DNA of 64,000 nt from Octadecabacter algicola. Its GTDB lineage: Bacteria > Pseudomonadota > Alphaproteobacteria > Rhodobacterales > Rhodobacteraceae. A model generated the notes under the pieces. The model did no database searches and was not told where the DNA came from. It saw only the letters and a list, made by a program, of their open reading frames with translations. The stretch spans positions 620,001 to 684,000 of the forward strand of contig NZ_JAKGAR010000002.1 of the NCBI RefSeq assembly GCF_021532625.1, in the 5' to 3' direction. Positions 57,891 through 64,000 of this stretch are shown one piece after another (the stretch's first letter is position 1; every line of letters starts with the position of its first letter). The position numbers and the translations under genes are program-made.

Positions 57891-59054
57891 ATGACAACGA
57901 CACTTGATGCGCGGGCATTGATGGAGCGCTTGATTTCGTTCCCGACTGTAAGCCGAGATAGTAATTTGGAACTTATTGATTTTGTTGAAGGTTACCTTGC
58001 GGGACATGGCATTGCGTCAACGCGCGTTCCCGATACGACGGGTATGAAGGCCGCACTTTACGCCCATGTTGGCCCGCAGGTTGAAGGGGCTGTCGTGCTC
58101 TCAGGCCATACCGACGTTGTACCCGTTGATGGACAGGCTTGGGATTCGAATCCCTTCGACGTGATCGAAAAAGACGGCAAGCTGTATGGGCGCGGCACCT
58201 GTGACATGAAGGGGTTTGATGCGCTCGCGATTTGGGCATTGGTCGAGGCAAAGAAGCGGGGCGTGACCCGTCCTTTGCAGCTTGCGTTGAGCTATGACGA
58301 AGAGGTTGGCTGTACGGGCGCGCCAGTGATGATTGATGCTATGGTCGCCAGTGGAATGCCACGTGGGGCCGCCGCGGTAATTGGTGAACCATCGATGATG
58401 AAGGTCGTTACAGGCCATAAGGGCGGCATCGGTTTTGAGGTGCACGTCCGTGGGTTCGAGGTCCATTCATCGCTGATCCACGAAGGGGTCAACGCAATCA
58501 TGTTCGGAGCCAAGTTGATTGACTGGTGCAATGAGATGAATGCCGAAAATGCGGCCAAGACACCGTTGGTAACGGATGCAGAATTTGTGCCGCCTTACAC
58601 CACGCTACATGTCGGAATGGTGAGTGGTGGCACAGCCCACAACATCACCGCCAAGGACTGCAATTTCGTGCTGACATTCCGCACAGTTCCGGGCGAATCG
58701 GGCCAGATGTGGGTTGAAGCGTTCGAGGCCAAAGTTGCCGAAATCGAAGCGCAAATGCAGGCCATCCATCCTGACACAGGGATCGATTACAGTCGTAAAT
58801 TCGATGTGCCCGGTTTGAAGCCAGAGATTGAAGGCAGCGCCGAAGAACTGGTGCGCCTCATTACGGGGGATAACGCCGTAAACGTGGTCAGTTACGGAAC
58901 CGAGGCAGGTCAGTTTCAAGAACGCGGCTATTCCGCCGTGATCTGCGGACCCGGCGATATCGCACAAGCTCACCAGCCAAACGAGTTCATCACAATTGAG
59001 CAGTTCCAAGCGGGCGAGAAATTTATGCAACAGCTGCTCGATAGCTTGAATTAA
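57891..59054 (+). CDS. M20 peptidase, acetylornithine deacetylase (ArgE)-like
   Basis: A 387-residue zinc-dependent amidohydrolase. Metal motifs: LSGHTDVVPVDG (H73, D75), GRGTCDMKGFDA (D105) and SYDEEVGCTGA (E137, E138), with a lid domain in between (HKGGIGFEVHVRGFEVHSS). The ArgE-like order of motifs is clear, but next to a peptide transporter the substrate may be an N-acyl amino acid or dipeptide and not acetylornithine. AAAGGGA precedes the ATG. A second M20 gene follows on the same strand. Confidence 0.9.
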   Translation: MTTTLDARALMERLISFPTVSRDSNLELIDFVEGYLAGHGIASTRVPDTTGMKAALYAHVGPQVEGAVVLSGHTDVVPVDGQAWDSNPFDVIEKDGKLYGRGTCDMKGFDALAIWALVEAKKRGVTRPLQLALSYDEEVGCTGAPVMIDAMVASGMPRGAAAVIGEPSMMKVVTGHKGGIGFEVHVRGFEVHSSLIHEGVNAIMFGAKLIDWCNEMNAENAAKTPLVTDAEFVPPYTTLHVGMVSGGTAHNITAKDCNFVLTFRTVPGESGQMWVEAFEAKVAEIEAQMQAIHPDTGIDYSRKFDVPGLKPEIEGSAEELVRLITGDNAVNVVSYGTEAGQFQERGYSAVICGPGDIAQAHQPNEFITIEQFQAGEKFMQQLLDSLN

Positions 59055-59141
59055 GGGCGGTCGTGAAGGGGGAGGGCTGCAAGGGCTTGTTGTCCCCCGT
59101 CGTGCGATCCAATTTACATCGAACCCATCAGGAGAATCCAA

Positions 59142-60305
59142 ATGCCAGTAAAGAACCGTTTTGCCGAGTTGCTGCCCGAGATTACAGAATGGCGGCGCGA
59201 CCTCCATGAGAACCCCGAGATCTTGTTTGAGACACACCGCACCAGTGCCATCGTTGCTGAAAAGCTAAAGGCGTTTGGGTGTGATGAGATCGTTACGGGC
59301 ATTGGCCGTACGGGTGTTGTGGGCGTGATCAAGGGTAAGGCCAACGGATCAGGTAAAGTCATCGGGCTTCGGGCGGATATGGATGCGCTCCCTATCCATG
59401 AACAAACGGGGCTGGACTATGCCTCCAAGACGGATGGCGCGATGCATGCTTGTGGTCATGATGGACACACAGCGATGTTGCTTGGCGCGGCAAAGTACCT
59501 GTCTGAAACTCGCAATTTTGACGGCACGGTTGTCGTGATCTTTCAGCCTGCCGAAGAAGGCGGCGGTGGCGGTAAGGAGATGTGCGACGATGGCATGATG
59601 GACCAGTTCGGCATTCAAGAGGTCTACGGGATGCACAATTGGCCCGGCAAACCTGTCGGGTCCTTCGCAATCCGTCCTGGAGCGTTCTTTGCCGCAACGG
59701 ATACATTTGACATTATTGTTGAAGGCAAGGGCGGCCACGCGGCAAAACCTCAAGAGGTGATCGACAGCACAGTTGTTGCCGCCCAATTGATCACAGCGCT
59801 GCAAACTATCGCCAGCCGAAACGCGGACCCTGTTGAACAGGTGGTAGTTTCAGTGACGTCCATCGAAAGTTCATCAACGGCCTACAACGTCATCCCACAA
59901 CGGGTTCATCTGAAAGGCACTGTTCGCACACTGGACAAAGACATCCGTGCTCTGGCTGAAAAACGCCTTGGCGAGATTGCGACAGGGATCGGCGCGACGT
60001 TCGGCGCGACGGTCGATGTCCAGTACCATCACGGCTATCCGGTCATGGTGAATTCTGACGAACAGACGGATTTCGCCGCCGAGGTTGCAGCGTCCGTTGC
60101 GGGGGATTGTGCAGACGCCCCATTGGTGATGGGCGGAGAGGACTTTGCCTATATGCTCGAAGAGCGGCCCGGTGCGTATATTTTGGTTGGCAACGGCGAC
60201 ACGGCGGCGGTTCACCATCCCGAATATAATTTCAACGACGAAGCGATCCCAGCTGGGTGCAGTTGGTGGGCCGAGATCGTCGAACAGCGGATGCCTGCGG
60301 CATAA
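59142..60305 (+). CDS. M20 amidohydrolase (hippurate hydrolase/AmhX-like)
   Basis: A 387-residue M20D-type enzyme. Motifs: RRDLHENPEILFETHRTS, LRADMDALPIHEQTGLDYAS in segments, MHACGHDGHTAMLLGAAK, IFQPAEEGGGGGKEM and the C-terminal MGGEDFAYMLEERPGAY. Such enzymes remove N-acyl groups from amino acids (hippurate, indoleacetyl amino acids). CAGGAGAA precedes the ATG. It follows the ArgE-like gene after 87 bases, so the pair is probably co-transcribed and processes what the divergent transporter imports. Confidence 0.92.
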   Translation: MPVKNRFAELLPEITEWRRDLHENPEILFETHRTSAIVAEKLKAFGCDEIVTGIGRTGVVGVIKGKANGSGKVIGLRADMDALPIHEQTGLDYASKTDGAMHACGHDGHTAMLLGAAKYLSETRNFDGTVVVIFQPAEEGGGGGKEMCDDGMMDQFGIQEVYGMHNWPGKPVGSFAIRPGAFFAATDTFDIIVEGKGGHAAKPQEVIDSTVVAAQLITALQTIASRNADPVEQVVVSVTSIESSSTAYNVIPQRVHLKGTVRTLDKDIRALAEKRLGEIATGIGATFGATVDVQYHHGYPVMVNSDEQTDFAAEVAASVAGDCADAPLVMGGEDFAYMLEERPGAYILVGNGDTAAVHHPEYNFNDEAIPAGCSWWAEIVEQRMPAA

Positions 60306-60445
60306 ACAACCCACGCTTCTTGTGCTGCCCGCTTTTTGAGCGCTCCGCCGCAATATCGTGCTTTTGCGGCGGAGTGCGACGCTTGCACTATTCATCTGCC
60401 CGATACCTATGGAGTCTCACTTTGGGTTGCGGGTAGCGATCCAAA

Positions 60446-61030
60446 GTGCAGACAGACCTGAAAATCCTTGTCGTCGAAGATGACCCCCAGAAGGCGCGCG
60501 ATATAATCGACGCGTTGACGGATGGCGGTTGGAAGAACCTATCGGTCATTGGCTCGGCGGGTGCGCTTGAGCGAACGATAACGACGCAGGACCCAGACAT
60601 TATCCTCATCGATCTTGCTAATCCGGATCGGGACACGCTTGAACACCTCGGTCTTGTGTCCAATGCCCGCAACCGCCCGGTCGCCATGTTCGTGGATCGC
60701 ACCGATGATGCGATGACGCAGGCGGCGATCTCTGCGGGGGTGAGTGCGTATGTTGTGAACGGACTTATGAAGGACCGCATCAAGCCCGTACTGGAAACCG
60801 CGATTGCCCGCTTTGGCATGTTCGCGAAAATGCAGTCTGAACTGGACGCGGCGAAACAGGCGCTGACGGATCGCAAAACCATTGATCGTGCCAAGGGGTT
60901 GTTGATCCGCGCGCGAAATATTTCTGAAGACGAAGCCTACAACTTGTTGCGCAAGACGGCGATGGATCAGGGACGAAAAGTCATTGATGTCGCGACGGCT
61001 TTGGTCACGGCGGCGGAGCTGCTGCAATGA
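60446..61030 (+). CDS. nasT: ANTAR-domain response regulator NasT
   Basis: A 194-residue RNA-binding antiterminator. Residues 1-120 form a receiver-like domain with Asp56 at the usual phospho-acceptor position (IILIDLANPD) and K109; a coiled linker leads to an ANTAR domain (about 135-192; IDRAKGLLIRARNISEDEAYNLL). In NasTS systems NasS holds NasT inactive until nitrate or nitrite is bound; free NasT then binds leader hairpins and prevents termination. GTG start, weak ribosome site (GGGTAGCG). It overlaps nasS by ATGA, and its predicted RNA target lies upstream of nrtA. Confidence 0.92.
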   Translation: MQTDLKILVVEDDPQKARDIIDALTDGGWKNLSVIGSAGALERTITTQDPDIILIDLANPDRDTLEHLGLVSNARNRPVAMFVDRTDDAMTQAAISAGVSAYVVNGLMKDRIKPVLETAIARFGMFAKMQSELDAAKQALTDRKTIDRAKGLLIRARNISEDEAYNLLRKTAMDQGRKVIDVATALVTAAELLQ

Positions 61031-62205
61031 AGTCTATTCAGGTACAGTGCGGATACCTCCCGTTGGTGGACAGCGCTCCTTTGATTATTGCTAAGGAGCT
61101 AAAGTTTGCCGCGCAGGAAGGGCTGGATCTAACGCTCCAAAAACAACCGTCTTGGTCGGCATTGCGGGACCGCCTGGCGTTTGGCCATATCGATTTTGCA
61201 CATATGTTGTCGCCGATGCCGATCGCCATGTCGCTGGGGTTAGGTGGGCTGCCCAACCGTATCGATGCGCTGATGGTCATGTCGGTGAATGGTACGGTTA
61301 TTGGCGTGTCATCCGCGCTGAACCAAAAGATGTTAGGCGCTGGGTGGGAAAATACGTTTGATGATCCGAAGGCCACATCAAAGGCGCTTTTGGCTGTGGC
61401 CGACCGCCCCCTGCGGATCGGGGTTCCGTTTCCATTTTCGATGCACCGCATGTTGCTGGAAACATGGTTAACCCAAGACCCCGCGTTTTCACCGGATCGA
61501 ATTGAGGTCGTGACGGTCCCGCCACCCCAAATGGCGCAGGCAGTCACGGATGGGGCGTTGGACGTGTTCTGCGTTGGTGAGCCGTGGGGCTCGGTCGCTT
61601 TACAGCAAAGCGACGCGTCGTTGATCCTACCGGGTTCGAGCATTTGGGAATTCGCACCCGAAAAAGTTCTTGGGGTGCGTCACGATTGGGCAGAGGCAAA
61701 TCCGACGGCTTGCCGTGCGATGATCCGCGCGCTTTATAAAGCTGCGCGTTGGCTGAACTTGCCAGAAAACACACCGCTTGCTGTTGAGATTTTGGCGCGC
61801 AGCCAGCACCTCGACCTGCCTGACCACGCAATTGACCCTGCTTTGACGGGCCGTATTGCCACTTATTCGGGGCAGGATGCCAAGCTTACGGCAGGCTTTT
61901 TGAACTTCCATAACAAAGCCGCCAATTTCCCATGGCGCAGTCAGGCAAGCTGGATCGCAGATGTGATTGCGCGTTGGCACGGATTTGATCGCGCCGCATC
62001 GCGAGAGACAGCGCGCGCGTGTTTTCGCAGTGATCTTTATCGTGAGGCGTTGGCCCCATTGGGGGTGAACCTGCCGGGCGCGTCAGAGAAGGTTGAGGGC
62101 GCGATGGCGACATCGGTGGCCGTTGCCTCAACCATGGGGCAGATGATTCTTGGGCCGGACAGATTTTTTAGCGGCGCGACTTTCGACTTTGAAGGAGAGG
62201 AATAG
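61027..62205 (+). CDS. nasS: Cytoplasmic nitrate sensor NasS
   Basis: A 392-residue NrtA-like ligand-binding protein without a signal peptide (starts MKSIQVQCGYLPLVDSAPL), hence cytoplasmic, as for NasS. It is homologous to NrtA at 62452 through VPPPQMAQA, FCVGEPWGS and the C-terminal part, so it derives from a periplasmic binding protein turned sensor. It is expected to bind nitrate or nitrite and release NasT. Coupled to nasT by ATGA. Confidence 0.9.
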   Translation: MKSIQVQCGYLPLVDSAPLIIAKELKFAAQEGLDLTLQKQPSWSALRDRLAFGHIDFAHMLSPMPIAMSLGLGGLPNRIDALMVMSVNGTVIGVSSALNQKMLGAGWENTFDDPKATSKALLAVADRPLRIGVPFPFSMHRMLLETWLTQDPAFSPDRIEVVTVPPPQMAQAVTDGALDVFCVGEPWGSVALQQSDASLILPGSSIWEFAPEKVLGVRHDWAEANPTACRAMIRALYKAARWLNLPENTPLAVEILARSQHLDLPDHAIDPALTGRIATYSGQDAKLTAGFLNFHNKAANFPWRSQASWIADVIARWHGFDRAASRETARACFRSDLYREALAPLGVNLPGASEKVEGAMATSVAVASTMGQMILGPDRFFSGATFDFEGEE

Positions 62206-62302
62206 GTCAAAAATTAAGCACTTTCTGCATTGCGGCAATTTGCGCTGCATATGCGAGGGTCGCGAGTCGTAATCAGGGCCTTAATTGGTCAATATCAAGT
62301 TA
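62206..62302. other. Non-coding start of the nrtA leader region
   Basis: No gene and no clear promoter. A GG-N11-GC pattern near 62234 resembles a sigma54 site but with the wrong spacing. The nrtA transcript may start here or read through from nasS. Confidence 0.4.
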
Positions 62303-62341
62303 GGGCAACGATGCCCGTTCCGGCCGACACTGATGTTGGCC
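62303..62341 (+). ncRNA. ANTAR-type leader RNA, two-hairpin NasT target
   Basis: First hairpin: GGGC/GCCC around the hexaloop AACGAT. Five bases on, second hairpin: GGCCGAC/GTTGGCC (7 bp, one G-U) around the hexaloop ACTGAT. Both loops have A at position 1 and G at position 4, the feature ANTAR proteins recognise. The pair is followed 14 bases later by an intrinsic terminator, and NasT is encoded upstream. Confidence 0.85.
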
Positions 62342-62355
62342 ACCGAAATATGAGC

Positions 62356-62418
62356 AAAGCCGCTCGATTGTGCATGCCTCCTCCCTTCCTCCCGCATGCG
62401 TCAATCGTGCGGCTTTTT
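62356..62418 (+). terminator. Regulated intrinsic terminator in the nrtA leader
   Basis: A long imperfect stem: AAAGCCGC, CGATTG and GCATGC pair with GCATGC, CAATCG and GCGGCTTT, with single-base bulges, a pyrimidine-rich 16-base loop (CCTCCTCCCTTCCTCC) and five T at the end. It would stop transcription ahead of nrtA unless NasT binds the two hairpins upstream. Confidence 0.88.
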
Positions 62419-62451
62419 GCGTTTCAAAAAAACAAACGGGGACGACTAAAT

Positions 62452-63819
62452 ATGAACACTTTCAAATGGCTCATCGCCACGACTGCTTTGTGTGCGAGCC
62501 CAGCGATGGCAGACATGCTGGACCTTGAGAAAGACGAGCTCACTTTTGGCTTCATTAAGTTGACAGACATGGCGCCGCTCGCTGTGGCGTATGAGAACGG
62601 TTACTTCGAAGACGAAGGTCTGTTTGTAACGCTCGAAGCGCAGGCGAACTGGAAAGTTCTGCTAGACGGCGTCATTGATGGTCAGCTTGACGGTGCACAC
62701 ATGCTCGCAGGTCAGCCTTTGGCTGCGACAATCGGCTACGGCACCGAGGCACATATCATCACACCATTCTCAATGGATTTGAATGGTAACGCGATCACAG
62801 TGTCCAACGACATCTGGGAGCAAATGCGCCCACACGTTCCTTTGATGGAAGATGGTCGTCCGCAGCACCCGATCAGCGCGAGCTCCCTTGCTCCGGTTGT
62901 TGAAGAATACCAAGACCAAGGTATCCCGTTCAACATGGGCATGGTTTTCCCTGTTTCTACACACAACTACGAACTGCGTTACTGGTTGGCTGCTGGCGGC
63001 ATCGAGCCTGGCTACTATTCACCTGACGACGTGACGGGCCAGATCGGCGCGGACGTTTTCCTCAGCGTGACGCCTCCTCCACAGATGCCATCCACAATGG
63101 AAGCCGGAACGATCTTCGGTTACTGCGTCGGTGAGCCATGGAACCAGCAAGCTGTGTTCAAAGGCATCGGTGTTCCAGTTGTTACCGACTACGAACTGTG
63201 GCGCAACAACCCTGAAAAGGTCTTTGGTATCTCTGCTGAATTCGCAGAAGAAAACCCAAACACCACGATCGCATTAACCAAAGCGCTGATCCGTGCGGCG
63301 ATCTGGTTGGATGAAAACGACAACGCCAACCGCGAAGAAGCCGTCGAGATCCTGTCACGTTCTGAATACGTTGGCGCAGACTACGACGTTATCGCGAACT
63401 CGATGACAGGTACGTTTGAGTACGAAAAAGGCGATGTTCGCGAAGTCCCAGACTTCAACGTCTTCTTCCGTTACAACGCGACTTACCCGTTCTATTCCGA
63501 TGCGATCTGGTATCTGAGCCAAATGCGCCGCTGGGGACAAATCGCCGAGCCGCAGACAGATGAATGGTTCATTGAAACTGCTCAGTCTGTTTACCGCCCA
63601 GACATCTACCTTGAGGCTGCACGCCTTCTCGTGGACGACGGTATGGCTAACGAAGCTGACTTCCCTTGGGATAGCGACGGTTTCAAAGACCCAACACCAG
63701 CAGAAGATGTGATCGACGGCATTCCATACGATGGCCGCGCACCAAACGCATACCTCGACAGCCTGCCGATCGGCTTGAAGGGTGACCAAGTCATCTCTGG
63801 GTCCGAAATCCAGAACTAA
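62452..63819 (+). CDS. nrtA: Nitrate ABC transporter, substrate-binding protein
   Basis: A 455-residue periplasmic nitrate-binding protein. Signal peptide [20 protein letters not shown], cleaved before D21. Family features: [68 protein letters not shown] in segments. A short internal frame upstream is leader sequence and not part of the protein. GGGGACG precedes the ATG. nrtB follows after a stem-loop. Expression is probably set by the leader's ANTAR hairpins and terminator, so it needs nitrate or nitrite. Confidence 0.95.
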
Positions 63820-63829
63820 AAACAGGGCT

Positions 63830-63850
63830 CGTCGCGCACTCCGCGCGGCG
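63830..63850 (+). terminator. Stem-loop between nrtA and nrtB
   Basis: CGTCGCGC and GCGCGGCG pair over 8 bp (one G-U) around a 5-base loop, 10 bases after the nrtA stop. No T-run directly follows, so it may protect the nrtA message or attenuate the permease genes, as at 53820-53841. Confidence 0.45.
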
Positions 63851-63893
63851 GGCGCCCCTCTTTACAACCCCTATTCAAAATACAGGTTCCGAC

Positions 63894-64000
63894 ATGACCG
63901 CCATTGACCCAGATACACTCCAGGCAGAAGCCCGCCGCGCCCGCCGCTTTACGCGGATCAACAAAGCCGACGCATGGTTTCAGGTTTTGGGGCTGGCGTG
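63894..64000 (+). CDS. nrtB: Nitrate ABC transporter permease, N-terminal fragment
   Basis: The first 35 residues (MTAIDPDTLQAEARRARRF, then TRINKADAWFQVLGLA) of a protein continuing beyond the window. The soluble N-terminus leading into a hydrophobic start, and its place directly after nrtA, fit the NrtB permease. AGG precedes the ATG by 8 bases. The assignment rests on context; the diagnostic membrane and coupling-loop motifs are not in the window. Confidence 0.7.
   Translation, partial: MTAIDPDTLQAEARRARRFTRINKADAWFQVLGLA

Follow-up and report, generated by a model that had tools for sequence, protein, structure and literature searches.

Three ANTAR-type loops in the leader between nasS and nrtA of Octadecabacter algicola and many related Rhodobacteraceae

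In Octadecabacter algicola a leader of 246 nt (62206-62451, forward strand; all coordinates are positions in the window, the 64,000-nt stretch of contig NZ_JAKGAR010000002.1 analysed here) lies between genes for a predicted nitrate sensor and a nitrate-binding protein. Upstream on the same strand, nasT (60446..61030) encodes a receiver followed by an ANTAR domain (Pfam Response_reg, 6.1e-9; ANTAR, 3.8e-20), and its product is the sole ANTAR match found in the whole genome. The adjacent gene (61027..62205) is predicted by homology and gene order to encode NasS, a nitrate/nitrite sensor with the fold of the nitrate-binding protein NrtA (Pfam NMT1_2, 1.2e-63). The first gene after the leader is nrtA (62452..63819, forward strand; NMT1_2, 6.9e-94), for the binding protein of a nitrate ABC transporter. 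It is followed on the same strand, partly past the window, by an nrtB-like gene (below the curated cut-off), nrtCD-like and nirB-like genes (both above it) and a gene for a nitrate-reductase-like molybdoenzyme (below cut-offs). The Pfam matches bear out the original prediction that NasT and NasS are encoded directly upstream, with sensor, RNA target and regulated gene side by side; the leader adjoins the gene of an ANTAR regulator. The reading frame of nrtA is open in-frame through the leader from 62230, which we take to be chance.

Three hairpins on the forward strand of the leader have a C-G-closed hexaloop of the form ANNGNN on a stem of 4 bp or more. P1, GGGC[AACGAT]GCCC (62303..62316; loop in brackets), has 4 bp and is separated by a 5-nt linker (62317-62321) from the middle hairpin Pm, GGCCGAC[ACTGAT]GTTGGCC (62322..62341), which has 7 bp. 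P2, TGAGC[AAAGCC]GCTCG (62351..62366), has a 4-bp core at 62352-62365; like P1 it is a hexaloop with A at position 1 (A1) and G at position 4 (G4) on at least 3 bp. The first two hairpins, their A1 and G4 and the linker between them had been described correctly in the original prediction, but it took the middle hairpin for the second ANTAR hairpin and concluded that this lay clear of the terminator; the true P2 had been overlooked. Chance is excluded as the source of the set: among 5000 dinucleotide shuffles of the leader, hairpins of this type average 0.057, with at least two in 10 shuffles and three or more in none. The leader as a whole folds 5.4 sd better than shuffles; folded alone, P1, Pm and P2 have energies of -6.1, -11.0 and -4.0 kcal/mol, respectively. 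The Rfam 15 covariance models, searched over 58000-64000, gave no match to the leader up to E 10, and the sole match in that region is an unrelated chance match inside nasS.

Downstream of P1 and Pm lies the long intrinsic terminator that had been foreseen ahead of nrtA (62358..62418, forward strand), with a core stem at about 62358-62414, a T5 tract at 62414-62418 and a local fold of -33.9 kcal/mol; the ATG of nrtA follows at 62452. The loop and 3' strand of P2 form part of the 5' arm of this terminator in the fold of the window, and the two structures are therefore predicted to be mutually exclusive. Enforcing P2 yields -60.5 kcal/mol, as against -72.1 kcal/mol for the unconstrained fold. 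P2 thus costs 11.6 kcal/mol, suggesting that termination is the default and that P2 needs help to form.

To place these features among relatives, we used loci recovered by a NasS protein search: 29 in named genomes, each assigned by its description to a Rhodobacterales genus, to Rhodobacteraceae or to Paracoccaceae, the nearest being Octadecabacter sp. B2R22 (NasS 95% identical). A GAGC[A..G..]GCTC hairpin is found 3' of nasS in 29 of 29 relatives as well as in the window. The 30 leaders (29 plus the window) were built into a covariance model, R1, with base pairs for P1 and P2 only; its middle region has no pairs but does have sequence columns. R1 scores the leader at 65.2 bits in its own genome, where it reveals no convincing further NasT target (next-best match 10.1 bits, E 4). 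Across 394 family genomes, 157 have an R1 match at E <=0.01 and 154 have NasS at E <=1e-60. We took 109 family matches (29 + 80) from among the matches listed, and 102 of these are flanked by NasS immediately upstream and by NrtA on the downstream side. The seven without NasS directly upstream (L073, L102, L104, L105, L117, L126, L146) were dropped, as were the duplicates L016, L054 and L070; the 102 matches and 30 seeds, minus duplicates, make up 129 distinct NasS-linked leaders.

Both outer hairpins are strongly conserved in this set. The P1 loop has A1 in 126, G4 in 129 and the closing C-G pair in 128 of the 129 leaders; for P2 the corresponding numbers are 128, 129 and 129. The covariation envisaged for related leaders is present in the P1 stem, where the third pair from the loop forms in all 129 leaders and takes six forms (70 GC, 21 CG, 19 AT, 8 GT, 6 TG, 5 TA). 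P2, the stem of which hardly varies, is better conserved than any other part of the leader. Its overlap with the terminator is likewise general: of the 10 nucleotides in the P2 loop and 3' strand, at least 6 find new partners downstream in 128/129 leaders, so that the classical competition between terminator and antiterminator is conserved, as in a canonical ANTAR leader, and a T-run of at least 4 lies within 95 nt in 127/129 relatives. In the minimum-energy fold of the full leader, the 5' strand of P1 pairs upstream and P1 does not form; we left this upstream stem out of the switch because local folds show such pairing in just 14/129 leaders, the window not among them.

The distance between the outer hairpins sets this leader apart from characterised ones. 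P1 and P2 are mostly 43-54 nt apart from loop to loop in the 129 leaders (mode 49; 49 in the window), and their 4-bp stem cores are 35 nt apart in the window, as against the 5-12 nt linkers described for eut genes, where 14 nt drastically cut induction in vivo (PMC3369931). In the same source, A29 and A53 place the two loops of eutP 24 nt apart. A linker lengthened by 20 nt is reported to have abolished EutV antitermination in vitro (PMC8934654). Linkers given for actinobacterial ANTAR RNAs span 2-25 nt (PMC8164766), and the published definition of the ANTAR motif leaves the linker variable. With Pm as an intermediate point, the long distance resolves into two steps, P1-Pm and Pm-P2, with loop-to-loop medians of 27 and 22 nt in relatives and values of 22 and 27 nt in the window.

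Pm was examined by folding each P1-P2 linker alone and taking its longest hairpin, the signature being a C-G-closed loop of 6-7 nt with a purine at position 1 and G at position 4. This signature is present in 83/129 linkers, whereas shuffled linkers average 1.9 and never exceed 6 in 100 rounds. A second procedure finds it in 84/129 (shuffle maximum 9) and a permissive one in 98/129, a figure without shuffle control; 46/129 leaders lack it in the strict test and 31/129 in the permissive one. Among the leaders outside the R1 seed the signature occurs in 58/100 (shuffle maximum 5), a count that is not wholly blind because the middle region also contributes sequence columns to R1. For the same reason we took a sample independent of the RNA model, consisting of 48 stretches that follow family NasS genes and whose leaders had not previously been taken. 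Our script rules parsed 31 of them, with a choice of P1 that favoured P1-P2 distances of 42-56, and left 17 unparsed (4 without P2, 13 without P1). The signature is found in 16 of the 26 parsed leaders with a P1-P2 distance of at least 40 (shuffles: mean 0.6, maximum 3) and is absent from the other 10. In another 5 of the 31 (L202, L212, L223, L227, L194) P1 and P2 are 20-28 apart, which leaves no space for a middle hairpin, and none is present; these short two-loop members of the family offer a natural control for what Pm does.

The middle loop differs from its neighbours in how it is conserved. Of the 100 C-G-closed middle loops of 6-7 nt yielded by the first procedure, 91 keep G4, and position 1 is occupied by A (58), G (30), T (9) or C (3); the expectation of A1 and G4 in homologous leaders therefore holds for P1, but for the middle loop it holds for G4 rather than for A1. 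Pm loops of 7 nt are common and G is frequent at position 1, unlike in the strict A1 hexaloop, and stem sequence and loop size vary among leaders. RNAalifold draws P1, Pm and P2 for 25 leaders hand-picked from one subtype. The sequences and their conservation show three loops with C-G closure and G4, the overlap of P2 with the terminator, the spacing of the hairpins and the order of the genes, and a majority of the related leaders we examined share this layout, with three loops versus the two described so far. A literature search that covered few subscription papers turned up no third ANTAR loop described in an operon leader.

We therefore favour, with a probability of roughly 0.8, a reading in which the leader belongs to the ANTAR hexaloop class, has a three-loop form and works by transcription attenuation under the control of NasT, with Pm most likely serving as a third NasT contact or relay. 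By analogy with the characterised NasT, EutV and NasR systems, from which control by NasS, binding by NasT and antitermination at this locus are extrapolated, NasS would hold NasT when nitrate is absent, and the terminator at 62358-62418 would form and stop transcription before nrtA. In the presence of nitrate or nitrite NasS would release NasT; free NasT would bind the loops of the nascent leader and stabilise P2 (62351-62366), and since P2 shares bases with the 5' arm of the terminator, the polymerase would carry on into nrtA and the genes that follow. P1, transcribed first, would recruit NasT, and Pm could be the third contact that bridges the long P1-P2 gap in steps of 22 and 27 nt, each resembling the step of a two-loop leader. 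Anatomy and analogy together give good support to the core of this scheme, NasT-aided formation of P2 in competition with the terminator. The contact of NasT with Pm is less well supported; it is suggested by the loop features of Pm, which are those that SELEX and structure have attributed to targets of ANTAR proteins. Such a switch would govern nitrate uptake, and probably assimilation too, in marine Rhodobacteraceae.

How Pm might act can be viewed in several ways. We tentatively suggest, at somewhat less than even odds, that it is a stepping stone, so that NasT or a NasT oligomer moves from P1 via Pm to P2 and so spans a gap too long for a two-loop EutV leader to work, which would make this a distinct architecture of Rhodobacteraceae nas leaders; if so, the loss of Pm together with the shortening of the linker in some family members would be its natural counterpart. 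Alternatively, Pm could be a structural spacer only, a stable hairpin that shortens the path from P1 to P2 and is untouched by NasT. The variable stem sequence and loop size of Pm fit such a role, as do three long-spacing alphaproteobacterial leaders (L165, L175, L182) without a purine-1/G4 loop between P1 and P2, two of which (L165, L175) carry by eye a stable, signature-free hairpin in the gap. A spacer nevertheless leaves unexplained why the middle loops retain G4 so widely along with the C-G closure, both being features that SELEX gave for NasR loops (PMC7496416), and we regard it as rather unlikely. A further option is that P1-Pm and Pm-P2 are redundant two-loop sites that share Pm, or that Pm buffers free NasT, with the third loop tuning the sensitivity of the switch. 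Both neighbour spacings resemble published two-loop spacing, and the short leaders of the family dispense with a middle hairpin; redundancy would not, however, predict that long spacing and middle loop are retained together in most of the family, and we consider this option unlikely as well.

The arrangement put forward originally, in which P1 and the middle hairpin are the ANTAR pair and act by a different mechanism without terminator competition, has in its favour that both of these loops have A1 and G4 in the window, that only 5 nt separate them and that the middle hairpin is outside the terminator stem. It is highly improbable given that the overlooked hairpin at 62351-62366 has A1 and G4, is the most conserved of all and overlaps the terminator, while A1 is not kept in the middle loop. 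The variant layout that had been proposed is real in respect of the third loop and the long P1-P2 distance, but it does not entail a loss of competition with the terminator. A search that demands two hexaloops and no more, joined by a short linker, can take the wrong hairpin for P2, as occurred with this leader, or overlook such leaders altogether. The three-loop reading also bears on the use of the two loops in ANTAR RNAs, which is debated between simultaneous binding by a dimer and successive contact, the latter argued from a EutV-RNA structure (PMC8934654); three conserved loops with two near-equal steps constitute a natural experiment for distinguishing the two.

The protein side is consistent with the analogy. 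The solved chains closest to NasT are EutV (6wsh), Rv1626 (1s8n) and NasR (4akk), aligned by phmmer along the length of NasT for the first two and over the ANTAR part only for NasR. In the phmmer alignment Tyr164, Arg168 and Met172 of EutV are kept as Tyr165, Arg169 and Met173 of NasT, and Arg142 and Lys143 as Arg143 and Lys144; Lys147, Asn173, Arg175 and Arg177 are changed to Arg148, Asp174, Gly176 and Lys178. The roles of the EutV residues are those named in PMC8934654, and we infer an offset of +2 between its EutV numbering and the solved chain.

Among known systems, EutV leaders of Enterococcus faecalis share the A1/G4 hexaloops, the C-G closure, the overlap of P2 with the terminator and an ANTAR response regulator (PMC3369931, PMC8934654), but as described they have two loops and a 5-12-nt linker (PMC3369931) in place of 35 nt with a third loop between. 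The NasR/nasF system of Klebsiella oxytoca is likewise a nitrate-responsive ANTAR antitermination of a nas operon, with A1, G4 and C-G closure, and is reported to differ in its one-component NIT-domain sensor and its two hairpins (PMC7496416). EutX/Rli55 resembles our leader in carrying an extra single G4 hexaloop and more than two ANTAR-type loops per RNA, although it is described as a trans-acting sequestering RNA rather than an operon leader (PMC8934654).

The closest functional parallel is Paracoccus denitrificans, which has the same regulator pair, the order nasT-nasS-leader-nas genes and a hairpin leader bound by NasT (PMC3795266, PMC5424462); NasT is reported to bind the nasA leader RNA, and nitrate to split NasS-NasT (PMC3795266). 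The leader of P. denitrificans HAMBI_2443 contains three hexaloops, GGCGC[AACGGC]GCGCC, TCGC[AATGAT]GCGG and CCGC[GACGAT]GCGG, the third beginning with G, whereas two hairpins are named in the published accounts, HI at -137 and HII at -91 (PMC3795266, PMC5424462). In our coordinates the loops are near -155, -130 and -107 and a terminator-like hairpin is at -86, so that the published HI would coincide with the middle and third loops, and HII with the terminator-like hairpin. Mutation of HI is reported to have severely lowered induction and its replacement to have prevented growth on nitrate, and mutation of HII not to have lowered induction (PMC5424462). The P. denitrificans leader differs from ours in having no T-tail, its third loop not overlapping a T-tailed terminator. 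After nitrate, P. denitrificans NasT is described as about six monomers (PMC3795266), a state that, speculatively, would suit three loops.

A class-wide search with R1 gave matches in 10 of 385 genomes, two of them being the genome of the window and that of another family member; the other eight have no NasS, NrtA or NasT match nearby and were not used. A wider set of 28 leaders was assembled from a class-wide NasS search (23) and plasmid records (5). Of these, 13 could be parsed; the 15 that could not include P. denitrificans and Rhodobacter sp. CZR27, in which three A1/G4 loops lie in a row. The parsable leaders comprise two-loop forms with a spacing of 18-21 (L163, L164, L189, L190), three-loop forms (L161, L162, L176, L183), the three long-spacing leaders L165, L175 and L182 cited above and two irregular ones (L159, L160). 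Rhizobium jaguaris and Methylocella tundrae resemble our locus in that nasS is followed by a P1 and a P2 with A1 and G4 and by an overlap of P2 with the terminator, but they have two loops, at spacings of 19 and 21, and no middle hairpin. The nas leaders L159 and L160, both alphaproteobacterial, contain at least four ANTAR-type loops in about 150 nt.

Three of the family matches dropped above place the three-loop module at other genes: ahead of open reading frames (ORFs) resembling siroheme synthase/uroporphyrinogen methyltransferase in L105 (1501-1556) and L117 (1501-1557) and, more weakly, ahead of a NirB-like oxidoreductase ORF in L126 (complement, 1501-1562). This location of the module suggests that NasT probably has trans targets in these genomes. 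In L073, translated frames place nasT and nasS apparently on the opposite strand, upstream of a three-loop nrtA leader.

No promoter-like site emerged from a simple sigma-70 scan of 62100-62500. By eye, a sequence resembling a sigma-54 promoter (consensus TGGCAC-N5-TTGC) stands shortly before P1 in several nas leaders from outside the family (L159, L161, L163, L189, L190 and others); none was seen in the window. A conserved palindrome, CTGC-N3-GCRG (62225..62235, forward strand), lies just after the nasS stop and some 80 nt before the P1 loop, and may be an operator or promoter element. We considered PhaR, presumably a possible binder of CTGC-N3-GCAG, and found no support for such binding in a literature search. 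In the relatives the palindrome often lies 81-86 nt ahead of the P1 loop, and 59/129 leaders have CTGC-N2-4-GCRG somewhere in the 200 nt that precede P1, compared to a mean of 4.8 and a maximum of 9 in shuffles.
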